NCBI RefSeq assembly: GCF_000374065.1
Contig: NZ_KB893255.1
Coordinates: 1-64,000, forward strand
Source of the DNA: Spirosoma luteum DSM 19990
Lineage (GTDB): Bacteria; Bacteroidota; Bacteroidia; Cytophagales; Spirosomataceae
Length of the DNA stretch: 64,000 bases
Direction of reading: 5' to 3'
Shown here one piece after another: positions 14,073 through 24,593 of the stretch (its first letter is position 1; every line of letters starts with the position of its first letter). Both the position numbers and the translations under genes were made by a program. The notes under the pieces are model-generated. The model did no database searches, was not told the origin of the DNA, and saw only the letters and a list, made by a program, of their open reading frames with translations.

Positions 14073-14154
14073 ACTTTACTAATGGCTATAAAGTTCATCA
14101 GTAGAAATAAGCACATTGATGACGCATATGTGGAGGTCTATTGCTGACGCATGT

Positions 14155-14296
14155 GTAGAGACGCAATACCTTGCGTCTCATATGCCGGATGGTTTTTAGG
14201 GTTGACGATATAAATTGCTGACGCGCATGAGACGCAAGGTATTGCGTCTCTACAGGGCGGTTCCAAATCGTAGAGACGCAATACCTTGCGTCTCAT
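14155..14296. repeat. REP-like palindrome cluster downstream of type III res gene
   Basis: There are three 27-nt units in alternating orientation: 14155-14181 (+), 14227-14253 (-) and 14270-14296 (+). Each has a 9-bp stem GAGACGCAA/TTGCGTCTC with loop TACC, preceded by GTA and followed by AT. The spacer between units 1 and 2 carries CCGGATGG, a T-run and ATTGCTGACGC. The same architecture recurs at 18965-19331 next to the RAYT gene. The rest of 14040-14368 holds no gene. Confidence 0.92.
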
Positions 14297-14368
14297 GCGC
14301 GTCAGCCCCTTGCGTCAGCAATACCCCGTGTTTCTGAATTGACATTGTATATTGCCACCATCCGTTTC

Positions 14369-16996
14369 CTACAATTGGGCAACCAACTCTTTGGCCTCGC
14401 TGATGGTGTAGGTATTGTCCAGCCGGTTCGTTTCAAACACCATAAAATAACGGTACTGTCGGCCGGCCTGTTCGGCCCATTTCTGGCCCAGTCGGTTTTT
14501 GGCCGCGCTGTCGGAATTATCGCGGTCGTCGCCTTTGGTTTCCAGCACGATCAGTGTACCGTTTCGAGTGTAGAGCACGAAATCGGGGTAGTGGTTCGAC
14601 TTGAAGCCGTTGATGGCAAACCCTTTGCCCCGTCCTAAGTTCCGATGCCAGAACAACACGTTCGGGAGGGCTGCCAACTCGCTGATAATCCGCTCCTCGA
14701 AGCCATTCATGCTACCCTCCCGTTCGTACAATGACTTCCCCAGGGATTTCCCCAACTGGCCCGGCACAATCATTTTTTTGAAAACGAAGCCTTCTGCTAC
14801 GGTAATCTTCCCCACCGTCAGCAGTTTTTTAAACTGGCCTTCGGCGTAGTGATCGGCCAGTACCCGGATTTTCTTTTTGATTTTGTCGCGGTAGGTGTAC
14901 TCCCGTGCCAGCCAGTCTTTCAGGCGTTCGGCGTCGAAACTGCCCAGAATCCGTTCCAGATATTGCCTGATTTGCGGGTCGGGAATGGGGTACATGTCGC
15001 CAATGAGTTGCAGCATTCGGTGGGCCAGGTCCTTGATCTGACCCGCTTTGGGTTTGGCCAGAATGTATTCCACAAAGGCTTCCTTGACCTGGATGTTGTC
15101 GATTTGCAGGAAAACCGGGCGGTATTCGTTGCCCTGCGTCCGTTCCAGGTCAATTTTATACAGGTCCGTTTCGACAGTGTCCCACTCAATTTTGATGTCT
15201 TCTTCCGACAGCCGGAAGCCGTTCAACAGCACTTCCTGATTGAGCAACACGCGCCCGCCCTCACTGAACAGGCTCACCTGCGGAACGTCCAGATAAAATT
15301 GCGGCAACGTAAGCGTCTGGGCAATGGCCGCGTAATCGTCTTTCAGAAGGCTCTTTTTCACTTTATCGCCAAGTTCCTGCAACAGGGGCAAGGGTTCTTC
15401 GGATTCCTGCTGACTGATTTGTTTTTCGAACGCCTGATTTTTCTCTACTGCAAGCTGCGTAATAGCCGTCAAGGTCGGCGTCAGGGTAAGCGGTACGTCA
15501 TCCAGCGGAGCCGTTGGGTCGAACTGTATTTTCTCCGGCTCGATCTCGTCACTTACGGTATCCGCTTCTGGGAATAAAAAGCCCTGCAATGCCTGCGCGG
15601 TGCTTTTGGGTTCGTCTTCAACTTGCTCAGCCCTATAGTCGTTTCGACTGAAACCGGCAAACTCCAGCCCCCGGATAATGCTTTGCAGGGTTTCGGTGAA
15701 TTTGGCGGAAGCTGTCAATACATACGACACGTTCAGCAGGTCGTTCTGGTGACGCATGACGTAGGGCTGCCGCAATACCCGCCCCAGAATCTGCTCGATA
15801 TCAACCGCCGACGAGCGGTCGGCCAGCGACGCGAGGATGTAGGCAAATGGGCAATCCCAGCCCTCTTTCAGGGCGTTGACCGTGATGATGTAACGCACCG
15901 GGCATTTCGGACTCATCAGGTCAACGTCCTTAAGTTCGTTGATGCTGGCGGTCTTGATTTTGATCTGCGCTTCCGGAATTTTAAGTTTCAGCAGTTGCTG
16001 CTTCAGCTTCTCGAAGGTGGTATTGTCGTCGTTCGTTTTCGGCTGTGCCTGAAACAAGACGATGGGCCGGATGTACCGCCCACCCGCTTTCTGCTCGGCT
16101 TTGGCCAACTGCTCCAGTTGCCGTTGCAGGTTCAGCGCACTCTCCACCACCTGCGATTTTTCCTTGTGGTTGTAAGCAATGACCGGCAGCTTCACCATGT
16201 GCTCTTTCTTCAACTCGATGGCCGGTACGAAGCTGACGATGTTGGCATTTTTCTTGGGCGTGGCAGTCAGGTCGAGCACAAACGACGGGTTCAGGTTGCG
16301 GAGCATCTCCACGCTCAGGTCGCTCTCGGCATTGTGACTTTCATCGACCACCACCACCGGTGTCAGGCTCCGGATTACGTTGATGAGGGCCGTTTGGTCG
16401 GTGTCGGCCAGGACGTGGTCGCTGGTGTCCGCCTGATTGGCGAAGGGGGCCAGCGCGCCGTTTTCCTCGAATATTTTCCGGTCTTCTTTTTTGGTGGCTC
16501 GCAAACTGCCGAAACTCAGCACGAAAATGCTCAACTGCTGCTGCACCACCGCCGGACTGAAATTGGCACCCTGCAAGAGGTCTTTTTTCTGATAAACGGC
16601 CACCCGATGATTGAACAGGCTGTTTAGTTTCTGGCGGTAGGGATGGGCCGGATTGGTCAGGTTGCGCACCGTCTGGTCGAGCAGGTTGCTCCAGGGCACC
16701 AGCCAGACCACCGCTTTGGGCCGCTCGGTGGCAAAAGCATCGAACAGGGTGTGCAGGGCGTTTACGGCAATGAACGTTTTGCCGCCCGCCGTGGGCACTT
16801 TAATGCAGACGTGTGGAGTGCCGGGTACGTTGTTCTGGTAGGGCCGCATACCGGTATTGCTTAGCGGGTCGTAGTCGCCCACTTCGTCGCGCCAGTAGTG
16901 GTTGTAGGCTAAGTCATAGCGGTGGGTGCGCTGCACGTACTGCAAGTAGCGGTCGAGGTCGCGGAGAACACCCGCCTGATAGGGTTTCAGTTCCAT
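14369..16996 (-). CDS. res: type III restriction enzyme, Res subunit
   Basis: An 875-residue SF2 helicase-nuclease. Motif I is VPTAGGKT (K73) and motif II is DESH (D218-H221). TATPKK and the motif VI-like QILGRVLRQP follow. The C-terminal PD-(D/E)xK nuclease has D805 in HYPDFVLY and E819/K821 in VLETKGD. Together with Mod it should cleave DNA after ATP-dependent communication between two head-to-head unmethylated sites. Its ATG abuts the mod stop codon with no gap, so the pair is translationally coupled. No frameshift or internal stop is seen, so the enzyme looks intact. Confidence 0.95.
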   Translation of the reverse strand: MELKPYQAGVLRDLDRYLQYVQRTHRYDLAYNHYWRDEVGDYDPLSNTGMRPYQNNVPGTPHVCIKVPTAGGKTFIAVNALHTLFDAFATERPKAVVWLVPWSNLLDQTVRNLTNPAHPYRQKLNSLFNHRVAVYQKKDLLQGANFSPAVVQQQLSIFVLSFGSLRATKKEDRKIFEENGALAPFANQADTSDHVLADTDQTALINVIRSLTPVVVVDESHNAESDLSVEMLRNLNPSFVLDLTATPKKNANIVSFVPAIELKKEHMVKLPVIAYNHKEKSQVVESALNLQRQLEQLAKAEQKAGGRYIRPIVLFQAQPKTNDDNTTFEKLKQQLLKLKIPEAQIKIKTASINELKDVDLMSPKCPVRYIITVNALKEGWDCPFAYILASLADRSSAVDIEQILGRVLRQPYVMRHQNDLLNVSYVLTASAKFTETLQSIIRGLEFAGFSRNDYRAEQVEDEPKSTAQALQGFLFPEADTVSDEIEPEKIQFDPTAPLDDVPLTLTPTLTAITQLAVEKNQAFEKQISQQESEEPLPLLQELGDKVKKSLLKDDYAAIAQTLTLPQFYLDVPQVSLFSEGGRVLLNQEVLLNGFRLSEEDIKIEWDTVETDLYKIDLERTQGNEYRPVFLQIDNIQVKEAFVEYILAKPKAGQIKDLAHRMLQLIGDMYPIPDPQIRQYLERILGSFDAERLKDWLAREYTYRDKIKKKIRVLADHYAEGQFKKLLTVGKITVAEGFVFKKMIVPGQLGKSLGKSLYEREGSMNGFEERIISELAALPNVLFWHRNLGRGKGFAINGFKSNHYPDFVLYTRNGTLIVLETKGDDRDNSDSAAKNRLGQKWAEQAGRQYRYFMVFETNRLDNTYTISEAKELVAQL

Positions 16997-18652
16997 TTAA
17001 AAGCGGGAGATATCACGGGGAATTTTCTTGAAGATGATCCGGCGCTGCTGAAGCCATTCTCGGGCAATCAGGCAGTTGTCGGCATAGATGACGTACTGTT
17101 CGGCGGGTGTTCGAATGGTCGACAGAAAGTCGTAATCCAGCGTGGTGAGCTGGTTCGGCTCGTAGTAGAAATAATACGCCGTGTCGAACAGCTTGCCCAG
17201 AAAATGGGGTTCTGGCTGGTCTGCGGTATCGGGCGTTGGGAGCGGTGACCGCGTTTCAGAGTACCATACGTACTCACGGATACGGGCCAGCGGAAGGGCT
17301 TCGTTCAGCAGGTTCTCTTCCGTAAACAGGGCCGGGCCGAGTTCGTAGTAAGCAAAACTCCCGCCCGTTCCTTCTTTGGTGCCGTAGCCGTCAATAACCC
17401 GCCGAACCCGCTCGGCGGTGATGGTTTCGGCGTATTCTTCCATCTCCACCAGAATAAACTGCCGATTCCCTCCGTCCTGTTTGTTCAGGTTCAACACTGC
17501 ATGGGCTGTCGTGCCCGAGCCGGCGAAGGAATCAAGAATGATGTCGCCGGGATTGGTGGAAGTCCTTAATAACTCTTCAATAAAATCAACAGACTTGGGT
17601 TGCGGAAAATCATTTTTATTTAATCCTGGAAAAATTTTTCCGAATTCGGTTTGTCCTTTTTCTGTATAAAACCGAGGGTCATTCCAGATCGTGAACGGTT
17701 TTCTTTTTACGGAAGCTCCATCATCACTTTTTGCGTAAGACTTTCTTGAAATCACCCAGCGACTCTTTTGCTTCACTGCAACTAACAAATGTTTGTCTTC
17801 GCGAGCTAAATCCTTACCCCAAGTCCAGCATCCTTCAAAACCGTCTGGCCAAGAAGGTTCTACTTTTATCGAGTGTACATCATTTTGATCAACTGATACT
17901 TTACCTGAAATCGGATCAACAAATAGAGGATAAGATAAGTTAGGGCGCGTTTCTCGATTAAATTCTCTATGTGTATTTCGGAGTTCTAAAAGACGGTATT
18001 GCCCCAATTCATCTTGTTTCTTATACTCTTTATCAACTAATGCTTGATCTTTCGAAATACTGAAAGAGTCTTTGTATAGCTCTTTCTTTGAATAGACTAA
18101 ACAATACTCATGATTTGTACTGAAATATTTATCCTGACTCCTTCCTTTGGGATTACAGAGTAGGGAAATTTGAGCAACGAAACCGGTTTTCCCAAAAATC
18201 TCATCAAATACCAGTTTCGCATTATTTGCTTCATTCTCATCAAGTGATGTAAAAAGAACCCCGTCGTTGGCTAACAACCTATACAAAAGTTGTATACGCG
18301 GGTACATCATGCACAGCCATTTATCGTGGCGGCTGAGGTCTTCGCTTTCCTTGCCTACCACTTTACCCAGCCAGCGTTTGATTTTAGGATCGTTGACATT
18401 ATCGTTGTAGACCCAGTTCTCGTTGCCTGTGTTGTAGGGCGGGTCGATGTAGATACACTTGATGCGGCCTTCGTAATAGGGCAAGAGGGCTTTCAGGGCT
18501 TCCAGATTATCGCCGTGAATGATGCGGTTTGGGCGGTCCGGCGTTCCGGCATCCGCGTCGCCAAAGGTGTATTGCTGTTCGAGTACCCGAAACGGTACGT
18601 CGTTGTGATGGTTAACTACTTTATCTTTCCCAATCCAGGTCAGTGTGGGCAT
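16997..18652 (-). CDS. mod: type III DNA methyltransferase, Mod subunit
   Basis: The ATG at 18652 gives 551 residues; the frame is open 25 codons further up but without a better start. Motif IV DPPY (residues 70-73) comes before the AdoMet-binding FAGSG (376-380), the order of beta-class N6-adenine methyltransferases. The central part between them, about residues 115-364, is the target recognition domain. Its DNA (17560-18310) is strikingly AT-rich, for example 20 of 60 bases G or C in 18061-18120, against 33 of 60 in 18421-18480. That pattern suggests a swapped-in specificity domain. The protein modifies host DNA and gives specificity to Res. Confidence 0.95.
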   Translation of the reverse strand: MPTLTWIGKDKVVNHHNDVPFRVLEQQYTFGDADAGTPDRPNRIIHGDNLEALKALLPYYEGRIKCIYIDPPYNTGNENWVYNDNVNDPKIKRWLGKVVGKESEDLSRHDKWLCMMYPRIQLLYRLLANDGVLFTSLDENEANNAKLVFDEIFGKTGFVAQISLLCNPKGRSQDKYFSTNHEYCLVYSKKELYKDSFSISKDQALVDKEYKKQDELGQYRLLELRNTHREFNRETRPNLSYPLFVDPISGKVSVDQNDVHSIKVEPSWPDGFEGCWTWGKDLAREDKHLLVAVKQKSRWVISRKSYAKSDDGASVKRKPFTIWNDPRFYTEKGQTEFGKIFPGLNKNDFPQPKSVDFIEELLRTSTNPGDIILDSFAGSGTTAHAVLNLNKQDGGNRQFILVEMEEYAETITAERVRRVIDGYGTKEGTGGSFAYYELGPALFTEENLLNEALPLARIREYVWYSETRSPLPTPDTADQPEPHFLGKLFDTAYYFYYEPNQLTTLDYDFLSTIRTPAEQYVIYADNCLIAREWLQQRRIIFKKIPRDISRF

Positions 18653-18964
18653 TATGAGCGTCGGGTATATTGTTGAAACCCCGAGGCTCGGTAGGGGGCA
18701 AAAAAACAGGGCGGCCTCCGCTGCCATACATCATTTCTCAGGAAGGTACCGCCAAGCACCCAGCGAGGAAAATGTAGAGGACAGCAAGAGGACACGCCCT
18801 TTCGAGCGCGTCCTGCCTTACTGCTTCCTCTCCTCGCTTTAAAAAAATTGGCGGTTTTTCCTGAGGGGGAAACGGTTAGCAACGCTAAATCTTTATGGTA
18901 TATCGGGTTATCTTTTTATAGTCGTTATTGGGTTGATTTCAGTCGGCAAGTTAACCCGATAACG
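18653..18964. other. mod leader region with long imperfect hairpin
   Basis: No gene was found in this stretch upstream of mod. A long imperfect hairpin spans 18763-18837: GCGAGGA at the left edge pairs with TCCTCGC at the right edge, and AGAGGA, AGCA and AGGACACG blocks pair inside. It would lie about 110 nt upstream of the mod ATG on the transcribed strand. Its role is unknown. Confidence 0.4.
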
Positions 18965-19331
18965 GTAGAGACGCAATACGTTGCCGGTCCGCCGGTGCGG
19001 TCTCCATATGCGTCAGCCCCTTGCGTCAGCAATACCCCGGTCGTTGCTTTTTGGGTTGCCATTGTATATTGCTGACGCGGATGAGACGCAAGGTATTGCG
19101 TCTCTACAGGCCGTTCCAATTGTAGAGACGCAATACCTTGCGTCTCATGACCGGATGGTTTTTTGACATCATAAATTGCTGACGCTCATAAGACGCAAGG
19201 TATTGCGTCTCTACACCACTGGTGCGACAATACCTTGCGTCTTTTGACCGGATGGCTTTTGGGGTTGTTGATATATATTGCTGACGCATATAAGACCGGT
19301 TCGCCGGTGCGGCAAGGTACTGCATCTCTAC
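18965..19331. repeat. REP-like palindrome cluster upstream of RAYT gene
   Basis: Alternating palindrome units lie at 18965-19004 (+), 19081-19107 (-), 19122-19148 (+), 19188-19214 (-), a degenerate copy near 19221-19243 (+), and 19292-19331 (-). The core stem is GAGACGCAA/TTGCGTCTC with loop TACC. Spacers carry CCGGATGG, a T-run, ATATA and ATTGCTGACGC. The first and last units contain an extra 15-nt GC-rich block (18985-18999 and 19297-19311). Paired units in opposite orientation resemble the BIMEs of enterobacteria. Confidence 0.92.
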
Positions 19332-19403
19332 ACTACAGGATGGTTACCCTTGTAAATACCAGATGATTTTTGGTTTGCTGATACCCTCTATTCCTGATTT
19401 CTC

Positions 19404-19946
19404 ATGGATAACCTGTTTACCCAAAAATACCGCATCTCGTCAACCCAGCTGGTGGATTATGATTACGGGTCGAATGGAATGTATTTTATAACCATCTGCA
19501 CGCGGGGACGGGCACTGTACTTTGGGGATATTGACACTACACAGGAGGTTTCAGCCATCTGTCCATCGGGGATGGGGCAGGTAGCTATTGACTGCTGGAT
19601 GGCTATCCCGATGTATTTTCCGTTTGTGGAACTGGATGCTTTTCAACTGATGCCGAACCATCTTCATGGCGTTTTGTGGATTTGCAAACCCGACGAGGTG
19701 CAAACGGATTGGGTGCCGAATCAATTTGGTCCGCAACGGCAGAACCTGGCCTCCATCATTCGGGGGTTCAAGTCGGGGGTAAAAAAATACGCCACCATAA
19801 ACCGGATTGATTTCGGCTGGCAGCCCCGTTATTACGACCGCGTCATTCGCAGCGACAACGAACTGACCCGCATTCGTACCTATATCGAGAACAACCCCGT
19901 CAAATGGGTCGATGAGCAGCACAACCCGGAAAATTTGTACATGTAG
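19404..19946 (+). CDS. REP-associated tyrosine transposase (RAYT), IS200-like Y1 domain
   Basis: A 180-residue single-domain Y1 HUH nuclease. The segment YFITICTRGRALYFG is the first strand of the fold, the metal-binding HUH motif is H86-L-H88 in MPNHLHG, and the likely catalytic tyrosine is Y143 in YYDRVIRSD, followed by TYIENNPVKW. The last segment is typical of RAYT proteins, which nick and move REP palindromes and are usually single-copy and domesticated. It is flanked on both sides by the palindromes it presumably recognises. The TAG stop codon (19944-19946) is part of the downstream palindrome. No IS200-type tnpB or terminal ends of an IS element are present. Confidence 0.92.
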   Translation: MDNLFTQKYRISSTQLVDYDYGSNGMYFITICTRGRALYFGDIDTTQEVSAICPSGMGQVAIDCWMAIPMYFPFVELDAFQLMPNHLHGVLWICKPDEVQTDWVPNQFGPQRQNLASIIRGFKSGVKKYATINRIDFGWQPRYYDRVIRSDNELTRIRTYIENNPVKWVDEQHNPENLYM

Positions 19947-20051
19947 AGACCGGTCCGCCGGTGCGGCAATACCTTGCGTCTCATTCGCGTCAGCAAAACC
20001 ATCCAGCACCCGAGACGCAAGGTATTGCCGCACCGGCGGACCGGTCTCTAC
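19943..20051. repeat. perfect 40-bp inverted repeat abutting the RAYT gene
   Basis: The arms 19943-19982 and 20012-20051 are exact reverse complements, 40 nt each, with a 29-nt loop. Each arm is a REP unit with the 15-nt block CGGTCCGCCGGTGCG inserted between GTAGAGAC and GCAATACC (19951-19965; complement at 20029-20043). The loop holds the spacer motifs GCGTCAGCA and CCATCC. The left edge contains the RAYT stop codon. Confidence 0.97.
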
Positions 20052-20131
20052 CCAGGCGGACCATTATGTTGCGTCAGGGGTAAATAGAACGGGTTACCCG
20101 CTTTGCCTGTAAACCTATTTTAAAACCCCTC

Positions 20132-21404: not shown

Positions 21405-21487
21405 TTTTTGTCATTTCGACGCAGGAGAAATCTCAACATCGCGTAGTAACTGAACTTAAGATTTCTCCTGCGTCGAAATGACAAAAA
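21405..21487. repeat. perfect 29-bp inverted repeat, TCATTTCGACGCAGGAGAAA type
   Basis: The arms 21405-21433 and 21459-21487 are exact reverse complements with a 25-nt spacer. The core TCATTTCGACGCAGGAGAAA is a sequence I recall as common between genes in many Bacteroidota genomes. It lies 26 nt after the transporter stop and could also act as its terminator. No gene lies between here and kduD. Confidence 0.9.
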
Positions 21488-21661: not shown

Positions 21662-22435
21662 ATGACGACCGTACTGGATTCTTTTTCATTAGCGGGCAAA
21701 AAAGCCCTTGTTACCGGCTGCAAGCGGGGAATTGGTAAAGCAATGGCCGAGGCTTTGGCCGAAGCCGGGGCCGATATTATTGGGGTATCGGCTAATCTGG
21801 AGCTGGAAGGCAGTGCCGTGTCGAAATCGGTTACGGCGCTGGGCCGCAGTTTTCAGGCTTATCAGGCCGATTTTGGCAATCGGGAATCATTGTACCAGTT
21901 TATTACGCAGGTAAAGCAGGAGCATCCGGTCATTGATATTCTGGTGAATAATGCCGGTACAATTCTTCGCAAGCCTGCCGCCGAACACCCGGACGAATAC
22001 TGGGATGAAGTAATTATGGTGAACCAGACCGCACCGTTTATTCTCACCCGCGAGATTGGGAAAGGCATGGTGGAGCGGGGCAGTGGACGGGTTATTTTCA
22101 CCGCGTCGCTGCTTACTTTTCAGGGGGGTATCAACGTGCCGGGCTATGCCGCCAGCAAGGGTGCCATCGGTAGTATGGTGAAGGCATTTGCCAATGAGTG
22201 GGCGGGTAAAGGGGTTAACGTCAATGCCATTGCCCCCGGCTATATTTCAACTGATAACACAGAAGCGCTACGGGCCGATCAAGCGCGGAGTGAGTCGATT
22301 TTGAGCCGGATACCGGCGGCCCGGTGGGGTGAACCCGAAGACTTCAAAGGCCCGGTTGTATTCCTGGCTTCGAGCGCAGCCAGCTACGTTCATGGCACCA
22401 TCCTGACGGTGGATGGCGGCTGGATGGGACGGTAA
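21662..22435 (+). CDS. kduD: 2-dehydro-3-deoxy-D-gluconate 5-dehydrogenase (SDR family)
   Basis: A 257-residue classical short-chain dehydrogenase. It has the cofactor motif TGCKRGIG near residues 19-26, NNAG, and the catalytic S149, Y162 and K166 (YAASK). The C-terminal segment ILSRIPAARWGEPEDFKGPV and the ending TVDGGWMGR closely follow KduD, which interconverts 2,5-diketo-3-deoxygluconate and 2-keto-3-deoxygluconate in pectin and alginate-derived uronate breakdown. KduI is not in the window. A terminator follows directly. Confidence 0.85.
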   Translation: MTTVLDSFSLAGKKALVTGCKRGIGKAMAEALAEAGADIIGVSANLELEGSAVSKSVTALGRSFQAYQADFGNRESLYQFITQVKQEHPVIDILVNNAGTILRKPAAEHPDEYWDEVIMVNQTAPFILTREIGKGMVERGSGRVIFTASLLTFQGGINVPGYAASKGAIGSMVKAFANEWAGKGVNVNAIAPGYISTDNTEALRADQARSESILSRIPAARWGEPEDFKGPVVFLASSAASYVHGTILTVDGGWMGR

Positions 22436-22469: not shown

Positions 22470-22518
22470 GCAGGGAGTGAAATGGCAGACAAAACACCGT
22501 TTTACTCCCTGCCTTTTT
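22470..22518. terminator. rho-independent terminator of kduD
   Basis: GCAGGGAGTGAAA (22470-22482) pairs with TTTACTCCCTGC (22501-22512, one mismatch or bulge), followed by a run of Ts. It lies between convergent kduD and the GH3 gene, and its T-run reaches the GH3 stop codon. Confidence 0.85.
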
Positions 22519-24593
22519 TAGTAGTTCATGCCTTCATCGTACTTGAAAAGTGGGTAGGCAGCACCTTCCAGATACCCCGGCACATCTTCTTTCTGCTGCT
22601 GGGCAGCCGTTTCGGAGATGGGCGTGGTGAAGGGCATTTTACCCGTTGGTTTGAACTTACCCGTCACGATGTCCAGCAATGCATCGGGGGTAGTACCAAA
22701 CGTAGCCAGAATGCCCTTGACGTTCTTCTTCTGCGTATCGCTGTATAGTTCGTCAATTACCCAGGGGTTGGTGTAATTGATGGCCAGTACGGTTGGCTTC
22801 TTCGCCATCAGGGTATTGATATAATTGACATCAACGCCGTTTTTCGACAGCGACAGGGGCAACGGTGAACCATCGGAGCCAAACAATGCTCGACCCGAAG
22901 GCCGAAGCCACAACAGAATAACGTCGGCCTCTTCGGGCGTTTTAACGAACGTGACGGGGTATTTACCCTCATTGGTGGTGTACACCTCACCGGGGCCAGC
23001 CTCCGCGCCAACGCGTTTCTGATAGATTTCGAAGTAAACTTTCGTAGCGGCTTTCAGGGGCAGCGTTTTAGTTTCGTTGCGTAGCAGTACGATGGATTTA
23101 CGCAGGGCCAGGTCGGCGCGGGCCTGAAATTTAGCACTACCGACAATCCGTTCGGCGGCATCCTCATCTACGTACGGGTTTTCAAACAGGCCCATTTTAA
23201 ATTTCTCTTCCAGCAACCGCAGCACCGAATCGTCAATCAGCTTCCTGTCAACCATTCCTTTTTTGACCGTCTCGAGCAGATTAGCGGGATCAGCGGTGCC
23301 GGAGTAGAGATTGACCCCGGCTTCCAGCGTGCGCTTGTAGCGTTCCTGAATCGACAGGTTTTCGGCACCCCAGGGCATCATTTCAATGGGGCCGGTGTCG
23401 GAATTGATGATGCCTTTAAAGCCCAGTTTGACCCGCAATAAGTCGTGAATAACGGCCCGGTTGTAGGCGTAGGCAATGGGTTCGTACTCCGTGCCAACGG
23501 GCATGGAATAGTACGGCATAATAGCCGAGGTGCCCGCCTTGATGGCAGCTTTGAATGGAATCAGGTTATTCTCGAACATTTTTCCGGGAAACACTTCCTG
23601 TTTACCCCATTCAAAGTGCGGGTCCTGCCCTTCTTTTCCTGCGCCACCACCGGGAAAATGCTTGGTGGTCATGGCTACCGAGGCCGGACTCAGGCTGGCA
23701 CCCTGAAAGCCCAGCACTATTTCTGTAATCATCTTCGCTACCCAGTCGGCATTCTCACCAAAAGTGCCGTCGATGCGTTGCCAGCGGGGTTCGGTGGATA
23801 AATCGGCCATGTACATATAGCCTTTACGCAGCCCCACGGCGGCCCACTCCTGCCGGGCAATATCGGCAAACTCGCGGGTGAGTTTCAGGTCGCGCATGGC
23901 GGATAAACCCAGTTCACCGGGCCAGACCGAGAAGACCGTTTTTCCTACACTCGTACCGATAGTGGCCGCGTTGGTCACGTGGTTGCGCGGATTGGACGCC
24001 ACAATGGCCGGAATACCCAGCCGCTGCTTTTCGCACAGCGCCTGTAATTTGTTAGTCCATTCGGCGGTCATCCGGGCACTGACATTGGCACGGAGAATAA
24101 AATGCCGCAGGTGAAAATCCGTGACGGCTTTGGTCGTCCCGGCCGCATTCATGATGGCCGTAGGCAGCGGTTTGCGGGTAAACATGTTCTGGCTGGCCAG
24201 CAGGTCATCTTCGTTGAAATCGCTGGTGATGGGGTCTTTATTCTGGGGTGCTCCAAACGACCAGTCGTTTTTCATGCGGGAGGTGCTGATGAGCATAAAG
24301 CCTACTTTTTCTTCCAGCGACATCTGCCCCATTAAATCTTTGCTTCGTTCCTCCGGCGTTAGTCGCCAGTCTTCGTAGCTGTCGAGTTTGCCGTTCTGAT
24401 TCAGGTCCTTGAACGATAGTCCATTGGCCTGAATCAATTTCGCCGACCGCGTGCCCAGCACGGGTTGTTTGGGAGCCTTACCCGGTGGAGTCTCCGATAA
24501 ACGGGTGCCGGATGCCGGAAATGGCTTTTTGCTCGTGTAGGCTGTCAGGACCAGGGATATAAGCAGGCCCGACGTCAGTAAAATATGCTTCAT
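22518..24593 (-). CDS. exported glycoside hydrolase family 3 protein
   Basis: A 691-residue protein with a signal sequence (MKHILLTSGLLISLVLTAYT). Residues about 61-74 (DLNQNGKLDSYEDW) form an EF-hand/dockerin-like calcium loop at the start of the mature protein. The GH3 N-terminal barrel follows (MSLEEKVGFML, TKHFPGGG), with the nucleophile D399 in GIINSDTG, then the alpha/beta sandwich (LRKSIVLLRNETKTLPL). It should release beta-linked glucose, xylose or a similar sugar from short oligosaccharides in the periplasm. The usual SDW after the nucleophile is SDT here. The gene is alone on its strand and convergent with kduD. Confidence 0.88.
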   Translation of the reverse strand: MKHILLTSGLLISLVLTAYTSKKPFPASGTRLSETPPGKAPKQPVLGTRSAKLIQANGLSFKDLNQNGKLDSYEDWRLTPEERSKDLMGQMSLEEKVGFMLISTSRMKNDWSFGAPQNKDPITSDFNEDDLLASQNMFTRKPLPTAIMNAAGTTKAVTDFHLRHFILRANVSARMTAEWTNKLQALCEKQRLGIPAIVASNPRNHVTNAATIGTSVGKTVFSVWPGELGLSAMRDLKLTREFADIARQEWAAVGLRKGYMYMADLSTEPRWQRIDGTFGENADWVAKMITEIVLGFQGASLSPASVAMTTKHFPGGGAGKEGQDPHFEWGKQEVFPGKMFENNLIPFKAAIKAGTSAIMPYYSMPVGTEYEPIAYAYNRAVIHDLLRVKLGFKGIINSDTGPIEMMPWGAENLSIQERYKRTLEAGVNLYSGTADPANLLETVKKGMVDRKLIDDSVLRLLEEKFKMGLFENPYVDEDAAERIVGSAKFQARADLALRKSIVLLRNETKTLPLKAATKVYFEIYQKRVGAEAGPGEVYTTNEGKYPVTFVKTPEEADVILLWLRPSGRALFGSDGSPLPLSLSKNGVDVNYINTLMAKKPTVLAINYTNPWVIDELYSDTQKKNVKGILATFGTTPDALLDIVTGKFKPTGKMPFTTPISETAAQQQKEDVPGYLEGAAYPLFKYDEGMNY

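Follow-up and report, generated by a model that had tools for sequence, protein, structure and literature searches.

Why does a small transposase gene stand amid a cluster of short palindromes, and are the palindromes its own? The question is raised by a 64,000-nucleotide stretch of DNA from Spirosoma luteum DSM 19990 (here called the window), which forms the start of one contig (C11) of a genome of 6.61 Mb in 68 contigs. An earlier note on the window proposed that the gene encodes a REP-associated tyrosine transposase (RAYT) embedded in its own family of REP palindromes, a REPtron, and the proposal is upheld by the sequence, a structure model, genome-wide counts and comparison with relatives. 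The gene, the predicted fold of its product, the repeats, their spread through the genome, their paired layout and their correlation with the presence of a RAYT were all computed. We put at roughly 0.87 the probability of the following reading: a REPtron consisting of a domesticated Y1 HuH transposase (RAYT/TnpA_REP, Quentin subclass 2.4), present in one full copy, and of short palindromes that are most likely processed by it.

The RAYT gene and its product

The RAYT gene (19404 to 19946, plus strand) encodes a protein of 180 aa. That the protein is a Y1 HuH transposase of RAYT type, with H86 and H88 in an NHLH motif (N85-H86-L87-H88), was already claimed in the earlier note, and it is borne out by alignments, by a protein family and by a known structure. 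The sole match in a search of NCBIfam was NF047646 (REP-associated tyrosine transposase, E 1.2e-13), a family that matches all 47 of the aligned RAYT sequences; the score of 51.2 bits lies under the curated cut-off of 80, as does the score against Pfam Y1_Tnp (PF01797; 13.7 bits, cut-off 23). An AlphaFold model of the protein (mean pLDDT 87.4) has as its best Foldseek match 4er8, the E. coli TnpA_REP on a REP hairpin (E 5.7e-7, TM 0.55; 17% identity in the structural alignment), followed by IS200/IS605 transposases.

The same note took Y143 as the catalytic tyrosine, and here it was wrong. Y143 aligns with F98 of chain 4er8, and it is Y160, within the motif YIENNP, that aligns with Y115, which we take to be the catalytic residue of the E. 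coli enzyme. The phmmer alignment from which this comes has an E-value of only 0.51, yet its WQ...YI..NP block is in register, and by alignment the catalytic tyrosine would be Y160. Y160, H86 and H88 are invariant in both of our alignments (30 and 47 sequences) and are among eleven invariant columns in the larger one. W94, Q95, R104 and Y115 of the E. coli protein correspond to W139, Q140, R149 and Y160, the first three matching residues from the region that contacts GTAG, while E100 and H101 are replaced by D145 and R146. W139 and Q140 are conserved at 90% or more in both alignments.

The shared Y1 HuH fold, and the IS200/IS605 transposases that come next among the structural matches, suggest a rival account, that this is an ordinary insertion sequence of the IS200/IS605 type and that the supposed REPs are its end hairpins. 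This is highly improbable. Such an element should occur as several near-identical transposase copies with common ends, and the genome has one full copy of the RAYT (the open reading frame at 19404 to 19946), as against sets of IS200-like Pfam matches of equal score in the same genome. The tyrosine motif, YIENNP, is not the Y[IV]ENQ tabulated for class 1 by Quentin et al. 2018 (PMC6006769). Furthermore, inverted pairs of the hairpins, joined by a conserved linker, are scattered over sites far from the gene, and the gene stands beside an MFS gene in two related genomes (G188 and G202) as well.

The genome also has six Y1 (IS200-like) transposase matches (L001-L006), which fall by identical score into two sets and all lie close to contig ends. 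A second, distant RAYT-like sequence (L010, G000:C35:117800) carries an internal TGA.

REP repeats in the window

The repeat has the layout GTAG-AGACGCAA-TACC-TTGCGTCT-C. The stem, the TACC loop and the two spacers, CCGGATGG and ATTGCTGACGC, match the description in the earlier note. The count of at least eight palindromes around the gene (18965 to 20051) holds if two degenerate copies are included (about 19228, plus strand, and 19293, minus strand); six copies have an intact GTAG foot (18965+, 19083-, 19122+, 19190-, 19943+ and 20012-). Within the window GTAGAGAC occurs 9 times, against a shuffle mean of 0.65, and the core AGACGCAATACCTTGCGTCT, allowing up to three mismatches, 8 times against 0.01.

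Upstream of the gene is a hybrid REP (18965 to 19004, plus strand) with a GTAG foot and a GAGACGCAA arm, the other arm holding a 15-nt module. An intact REP (19083 to 19107, minus strand) is followed by an inverted pair, or REPIN, at 19122 to 19214, consisting of an intact REP (19122 to 19146, plus strand), a linker (19147 to 19189, plus strand) with CCGGATGG, a T-run and ATTGCTGACGC, and a REP with intact foot and one differing end base (19190 to 19214, minus strand). A degenerate REPIN (19228 to 19336) combines a half REP at 19228, a linker with ATTGCTGACGC, and a footless, module-bearing REP from 19293. Downstream lie a hybrid REP with the 15-nt module (19943 to 19982, plus strand) and its perfect inverted partner (20012 to 20051, minus strand; 40 nt, 100%). 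A second array, absent from the earlier note, has three copies between 14155 and 14294 (14155+, 14229- and 14270+), and a pair among them has the same linker as the REPIN beside the RAYT.

As single-stranded DNA, the REP at 19122 to 19146 is predicted to fold at -9.9 kcal/mol (z -8.1) and the whole REPIN, 19122 to 19214, at -30.4 kcal/mol (z -10.5); two 40-nt hybrid REPs fold weakly by themselves (z -1.9 and -2.0).

REPINs across the genome

The host genome contains 19 copies of the REP at three or fewer mismatches (reversed-pattern control, 0) and 31 matches to a looser pattern, GTAGAGAC N5-35 GTCTC (control, 3). Loci fetched from the genome hold 34 distinct sites, six self-palindromic double matches having been merged, and several are degenerate. 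Twenty-two of the 34 make up eleven head-out pairs, with GTAG outside, and the remaining 12 are single or in arrays. A REPIN, as Bertels and Rainey reportedly defined it in 2011, is two inverted REPs plus a spacer, dispersed as a unit, and the layout here is the same: the eleven head-out dimers each appear to be an inverted REP pair that, with its linker, has dispersed as a unit. They are 75 to 162 nt long, with 25 to 97 nt between the arms. GGATGG or its complement is exact in nine of the eleven, and GCTGACGC is exact in eight and within one or two mismatches in the other three.

The 15 bases outside the 22 REPIN ends share no marked consensus, position -1 being a pyrimidine in 17 and position -4 an A in 11, and two of the outer flanks contain the linker motif or module-like sequence. 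Since the pairs share linker motifs and differ in their outer flanks, the REPIN would be the natural unit, and what the earlier note called spacers is the REPIN linker. The view that ATTGCTGACGC belongs to the mobile unit is supported, as among the loci compared this linker goes with this RAYT lineage only. A search for a filled and an empty site of a single REPIN turned up no such pair.

Some REPs of related genomes lie in the gaps of tandem arrays of paralogous permease genes (L253, L254 (G197:C5), L255 (G188:C8)), often 2.6 to 2.8 kb apart. Among open reading frames of at least 350 codons in these arrays, 18 of 19 are related, with 29 to 64% identity, and one that was tested is MacB/FtsX.

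A fixed foot, a variable head and a lineage-specific linker

Palindromes of the GTAGAGACG kind are common in Nostoc-type cyanobacteria. A sample across phyla (the best 80 of 573 confirmed related RAYT loci) allows the parts of the repeat to be compared. At 71 of these 80 loci a GT[AG]G hairpin is found inside the gene or no more than 300 bp away, compared with 6 of 137 windows shifted by 1500 bp; by the same rule, 9 of the 80 have no hairpin nearby. The hairpin is inside the RAYT gene in 50 of the 80. The commonest hairpin begins with GTAGAGAC at 54 of the 71 loci and with GTAGGGAC and GTAGGGGC at 4 each. Judging by record titles, the 54 come from Bacteroidota, Cyanobacteria, Chloroflexi, Patescibacteria, Kuenenia (Planctomycetes), a Methylomonas, Ignavibacteriales, a deltaproteobacterium and an Acidobacteriaceae bacterium, many of them being metagenome bins whose host may be misassigned.

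The information content of the REP exceeds 1 bit at positions 1 to 9 and is at most 0.61 at positions 10 to 13. Distances between RAYTs and between their REPs are correlated (Mantel r 0.47, 0 of 5000 permutations, 42 RAYTs), a figure that still includes shared ancestry. The linker is distributed more narrowly than the foot. The window's RAYT lineage, taken as the matches with E <= 1e-60, is represented by 15 loci, most of them from Spirosoma and five from other genera, and 12 of the 15 have GCTGACGC close to their REPs, at 16 times its density elsewhere in these loci; it is in none of 14 other loci of the family and none of 79 cross-phylum loci. Among the loci compared, the GCTGACGC/CCGGATGG linker thus occurs in this RAYT lineage only. 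The foot is accordingly common to most of the subclass, the linker to the lineage and the head to the RAYT type.

One might suppose that the repeats spread by recombination or gene conversion between palindromes and that the RAYT is not involved. In its favor, hybrid and nested REPs do exist, and REPs line the gaps of permease arrays in two relatives. Linker and stem nevertheless track the RAYT lineage, and the density of hairpins beside RAYT genes is about 31 times that at greater distances, both of which speak against the supposition and leave it improbable.

If the locus is a REPtron, its working can be sketched by homology with E. coli TnpA_REP, for which recognition of the foot, cutting at CT beside the REP and strand transfer are described by Corneloup et al. 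2021 (PMC8266576). In a single-stranded state, for example on the lagging-strand template, a GTAG-footed hairpin would fold. The RAYT would use W139, Q140, R149 and similar residues to bind the GTAG foot, and would also bind the nearly fixed lower stem (AGAC/GTCT), after which Y160 would cut beside the REP and join strands, if the chemistry of the E. coli enzyme (PMC8266576) carries over. The spreading unit would be the REPIN (REP, linker of 25 to 97 nt, inverted REP) and not the gene, and cognate specificity would come from the parts that vary from one RAYT lineage to another, the upper stem and the loop. A fixed foot combined with an upper stem, loop and linker that track the enzyme may amount to a RAYT recognition code, testable by swapping the parts. 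The lineage offers a clean set of substrates for subclass 2.4, with a near-fixed 8-nt foot and lower stem and with an upper stem, loop and linker that vary with the enzyme; in the published sources at hand, RAYT biochemistry was found for enzymes of subclasses 2.2 and 2.5 only.

Genomic neighborhood

The RAYT lies in a block of about 6 kb (14099 to 20109) between a TetR gene and an MFS gene, containing type III res and mod genes (Pfam ResIII and N6_N4_Mtase) besides the RAYT, with REP arrays near both ends. The block was not found in the nearest sampled relative, G211, whose MFS gene is 91.5% identical in DNA: similarity ends at 14098 and resumes near 20110, and in G211 the TetR gene adjoins the MFS gene across a 443-bp gap, mostly unrelated to the window. 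G188, on the other hand, shows the same gene order (res, mod, RAYT, MFS) and shares the REP, and in G202 the RAYT and MFS genes are side by side. Given these two arrangements, loss in G211 is as likely as gain in S. luteum.

Beyond the MFS gene, what appears by eye to be a short-chain dehydrogenase-like gene (21662 to 22435) lies before the gene at 22518 to 24593; G211 has no such gene at this place.

REP number and the presence of a RAYT

RAYTs were sought by profile search and repeats by pattern count in 36 Spirosoma genomes. The 14 with a full RAYT have 6 to 216 repeat matches (median 64.5), and the 20 with no or only weak RAYT matches have 0 to 93 (median 15; Mann-Whitney p 3.7e-4, phylogeny ignored). 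Two genomes with split RAYT matches have 18 and 36. Reversed-pattern controls sum to 15 over the 14 genomes and to 18 over the 20. When only the window's own stem is counted, at two or fewer mismatches, the medians are 11.5 and 2.0 (p 1e-3), all controls being 0. The expectation that genomes without the RAYT also lack the repeats therefore stands as a trend in the medians and fails as a strict rule, in view of the 0 to 93 matches in RAYT-less genomes and the mere 6 in G186, which has a full RAYT. The exceptions without a full RAYT are G197 (93 matches, mostly of another stem, AAGGCATGCCTT), G183 (52) and G208 (34). In a family-wide set of 222 genomes, 106 have a RAYT match at E 1e-3 or better and 135 at least one pattern match, single matches being near the control level.

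The exceptions lend some color to the idea that the RAYT is a relic of mobility and the REPs an old dispersed family kept for another role, such as transcript ends or protein binding sites, which the enzyme no longer moves. The 34 distinct sites in the fetched loci of the host genome are few and several are degenerate, REPs persist in genomes without a full RAYT, and G211, in which no RAYT was detected, still has 11 matches. Against it, internal stops are absent from all 20 RAYT matches with E <= 1e-60 (16 genomes), and dN/dS is 0.07 in the closest pair compared (G201/G190); of 28 pairs, 6 had a computable dS and gave dN/dS values of 0.06 to 0.15, dS being saturated in the other 22. The HuH motif, the tyrosine and the W, Q and R that may contact the foot are retained as well. 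In G188, where the gene occupies the corresponding position, the same REP has 77 matches at two or fewer mismatches. We consider the idea unlikely, if by no means far-fetched, and prefer the REPtron. The absence of the RAYT from G211 and the REPs of RAYT-less genomes bear on how long REPs persist after their enzyme is lost; G197 and G183, rich in REPs with no full RAYT detected, are candidates for REP populations that have outlived it.

A stop codon in the foot of a REP

The RAYT gene ends in ATG-TAG, and the TAG (19944 to 19946) is formed by bases 2 to 4 of the GTAG foot (19943 to 19946) of the REP at 19943. A TAG stop preceded by G closes 24 of 110 RAYT genes (two genes counted twice). Among 40 plus-strand feet between -40 and +300 of the stop (108 loci), 13 are offset by exactly -1, the next offset having 3; the count required a stem, with duplicates removed, and the window's own hybrid foot is therefore outside the 13. 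Some of the peak at -1 is to be expected, because any REP that lands in frame close to the end of a gene creates the first stop. The close lineage is cleaner: four members (L047, L055, L059 and L061) have no REP there and stop at the same residue with TAA or TGA. It is likely that REPs land, and survive, at a dispensable gene end. REPs overlapping the ends of RAYT genes were described before by Di Nocera et al. 2013 (PMC3733652).

Relation to known systems

By its motifs, hosts and REP type, the RAYT is best placed in subclass 2.4 of Quentin (Bertels group 4). According to Quentin et al. 2018 (PMC6006769), this subclass abounds in Cyanobacteria and Bacteroidetes and most of its genes have GT[AG]G REPs nearby, so that the earlier note's impression of a Bacteroidota version little described does not hold up. 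Like the RAYT here, which has such REPs within 1 kb, the subclass is portrayed there with HuH, WQ and YIxNNP motifs, GT[AG]G REPs beside the gene and few copies per genome. Against that description, the departures are small or permitted: NHLH has L where the subclass motif, NH[IFV]H, has I, F or V; 72 residues separate the HuH motif from the tyrosine (H88 to Y160), the subclass median being 88; and there is no REP inside the gene, a feature frequent in the subclass and not required. The E. coli system (subclass 2.2, 4er8) shares the fold and the GTAG foot, but its REP stems are bulged, whereas the REPs here have a perfect 9-bp stem.

The REPINs of Bertels and Rainey 2011 (PMC3116915), in the part of that paper drawn on here, are from Pseudomonas fluorescens; host, stem and linker differ in ours. 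GTAG-footed palindromes, head-out dimers and REPs flanking or overlapping RAYT genes appear likewise in Di Nocera et al. 2013 (PMC3733652), whose relevant passages place GTAG repeats in Proteobacteria, Cyanobacteria, Chloroflexi and PVC and name Bacteroidetes for CGTC repeats only. Literature searches gave no description of the exact repeat (GTAGAGACG, CCGGTCCGCCGG) among the matches listed, one possibly existing elsewhere; for REPs of Spirosoma they matched only a Caldithrix paper; and related terms were not found in the searchable part of Nunvar 2010 (PMC2817692). This kind of system is already in print, along with its representatives in Bacteroidetes and REPs inserted into such genes (PMC6006769). 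Neither the searched text of PMC6006769 nor the literature searches yielded the lineage-specific linker, the near-fixed foot across phyla, a stop codon supplied by a foot or the nested module discussed below. The fixed foot, lineage linker, nested 15-base insert and stop overlap add testable detail to a known kind of system.

A module nested within REPs

The 15-nt module of the hybrid REPs (CCGGTCCGCCGGTGCGG; 18984 to 19000, plus strand, with other copies in the window at 19296 to 19312, 19950 to 19966 and 20028 to 20044) is a palindrome of 15 to 17 nt that is dispersed separately and nested in REPs. The genome has 68 matches at two or fewer mismatches (control, 2). At least nine copies are in REPs or a REP remnant; in REPs of the GCAATACC type, the module interrupts GAGAC^GCAA, in either orientation. 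Related genomes carry similar REP-module hybrids. Thirty matches were fetched with their surroundings, including the two hybrid REPs beside the RAYT (L198 and L199), and 27 had a copy at the center of the locus by a stricter pattern. Of these, 17 are situated within open frames of 150 codons or more, an open frame not being proof of a gene; examples of modules in open frames are L193, L194, L205, L208 and L212. We take L205 to be IS1-like and L194 to be a permease. The protein of L193 aligns with its PDB homologue 1vpq up to residue 206 only, just before the module.

Perhaps the 15-nt palindrome CGGTCCGCCGGTGCG is itself a dispersed insertion unit, maybe among the smallest known, that enters REPs at GAGAC^GCAA both ways, another repeat family and open frames, a tentative and rather doubtful proposal. 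If true, each insertion in an open frame would add five codons, and REPs would serve as landing sites for nested repeats, giving two interacting levels of tiny elements beside one RAYT. The copy in a different repeat is at L203, which looks similar to another inverted repeat of the window, past the MFS gene (21405 to 21487; 32-nt arms, 97%).
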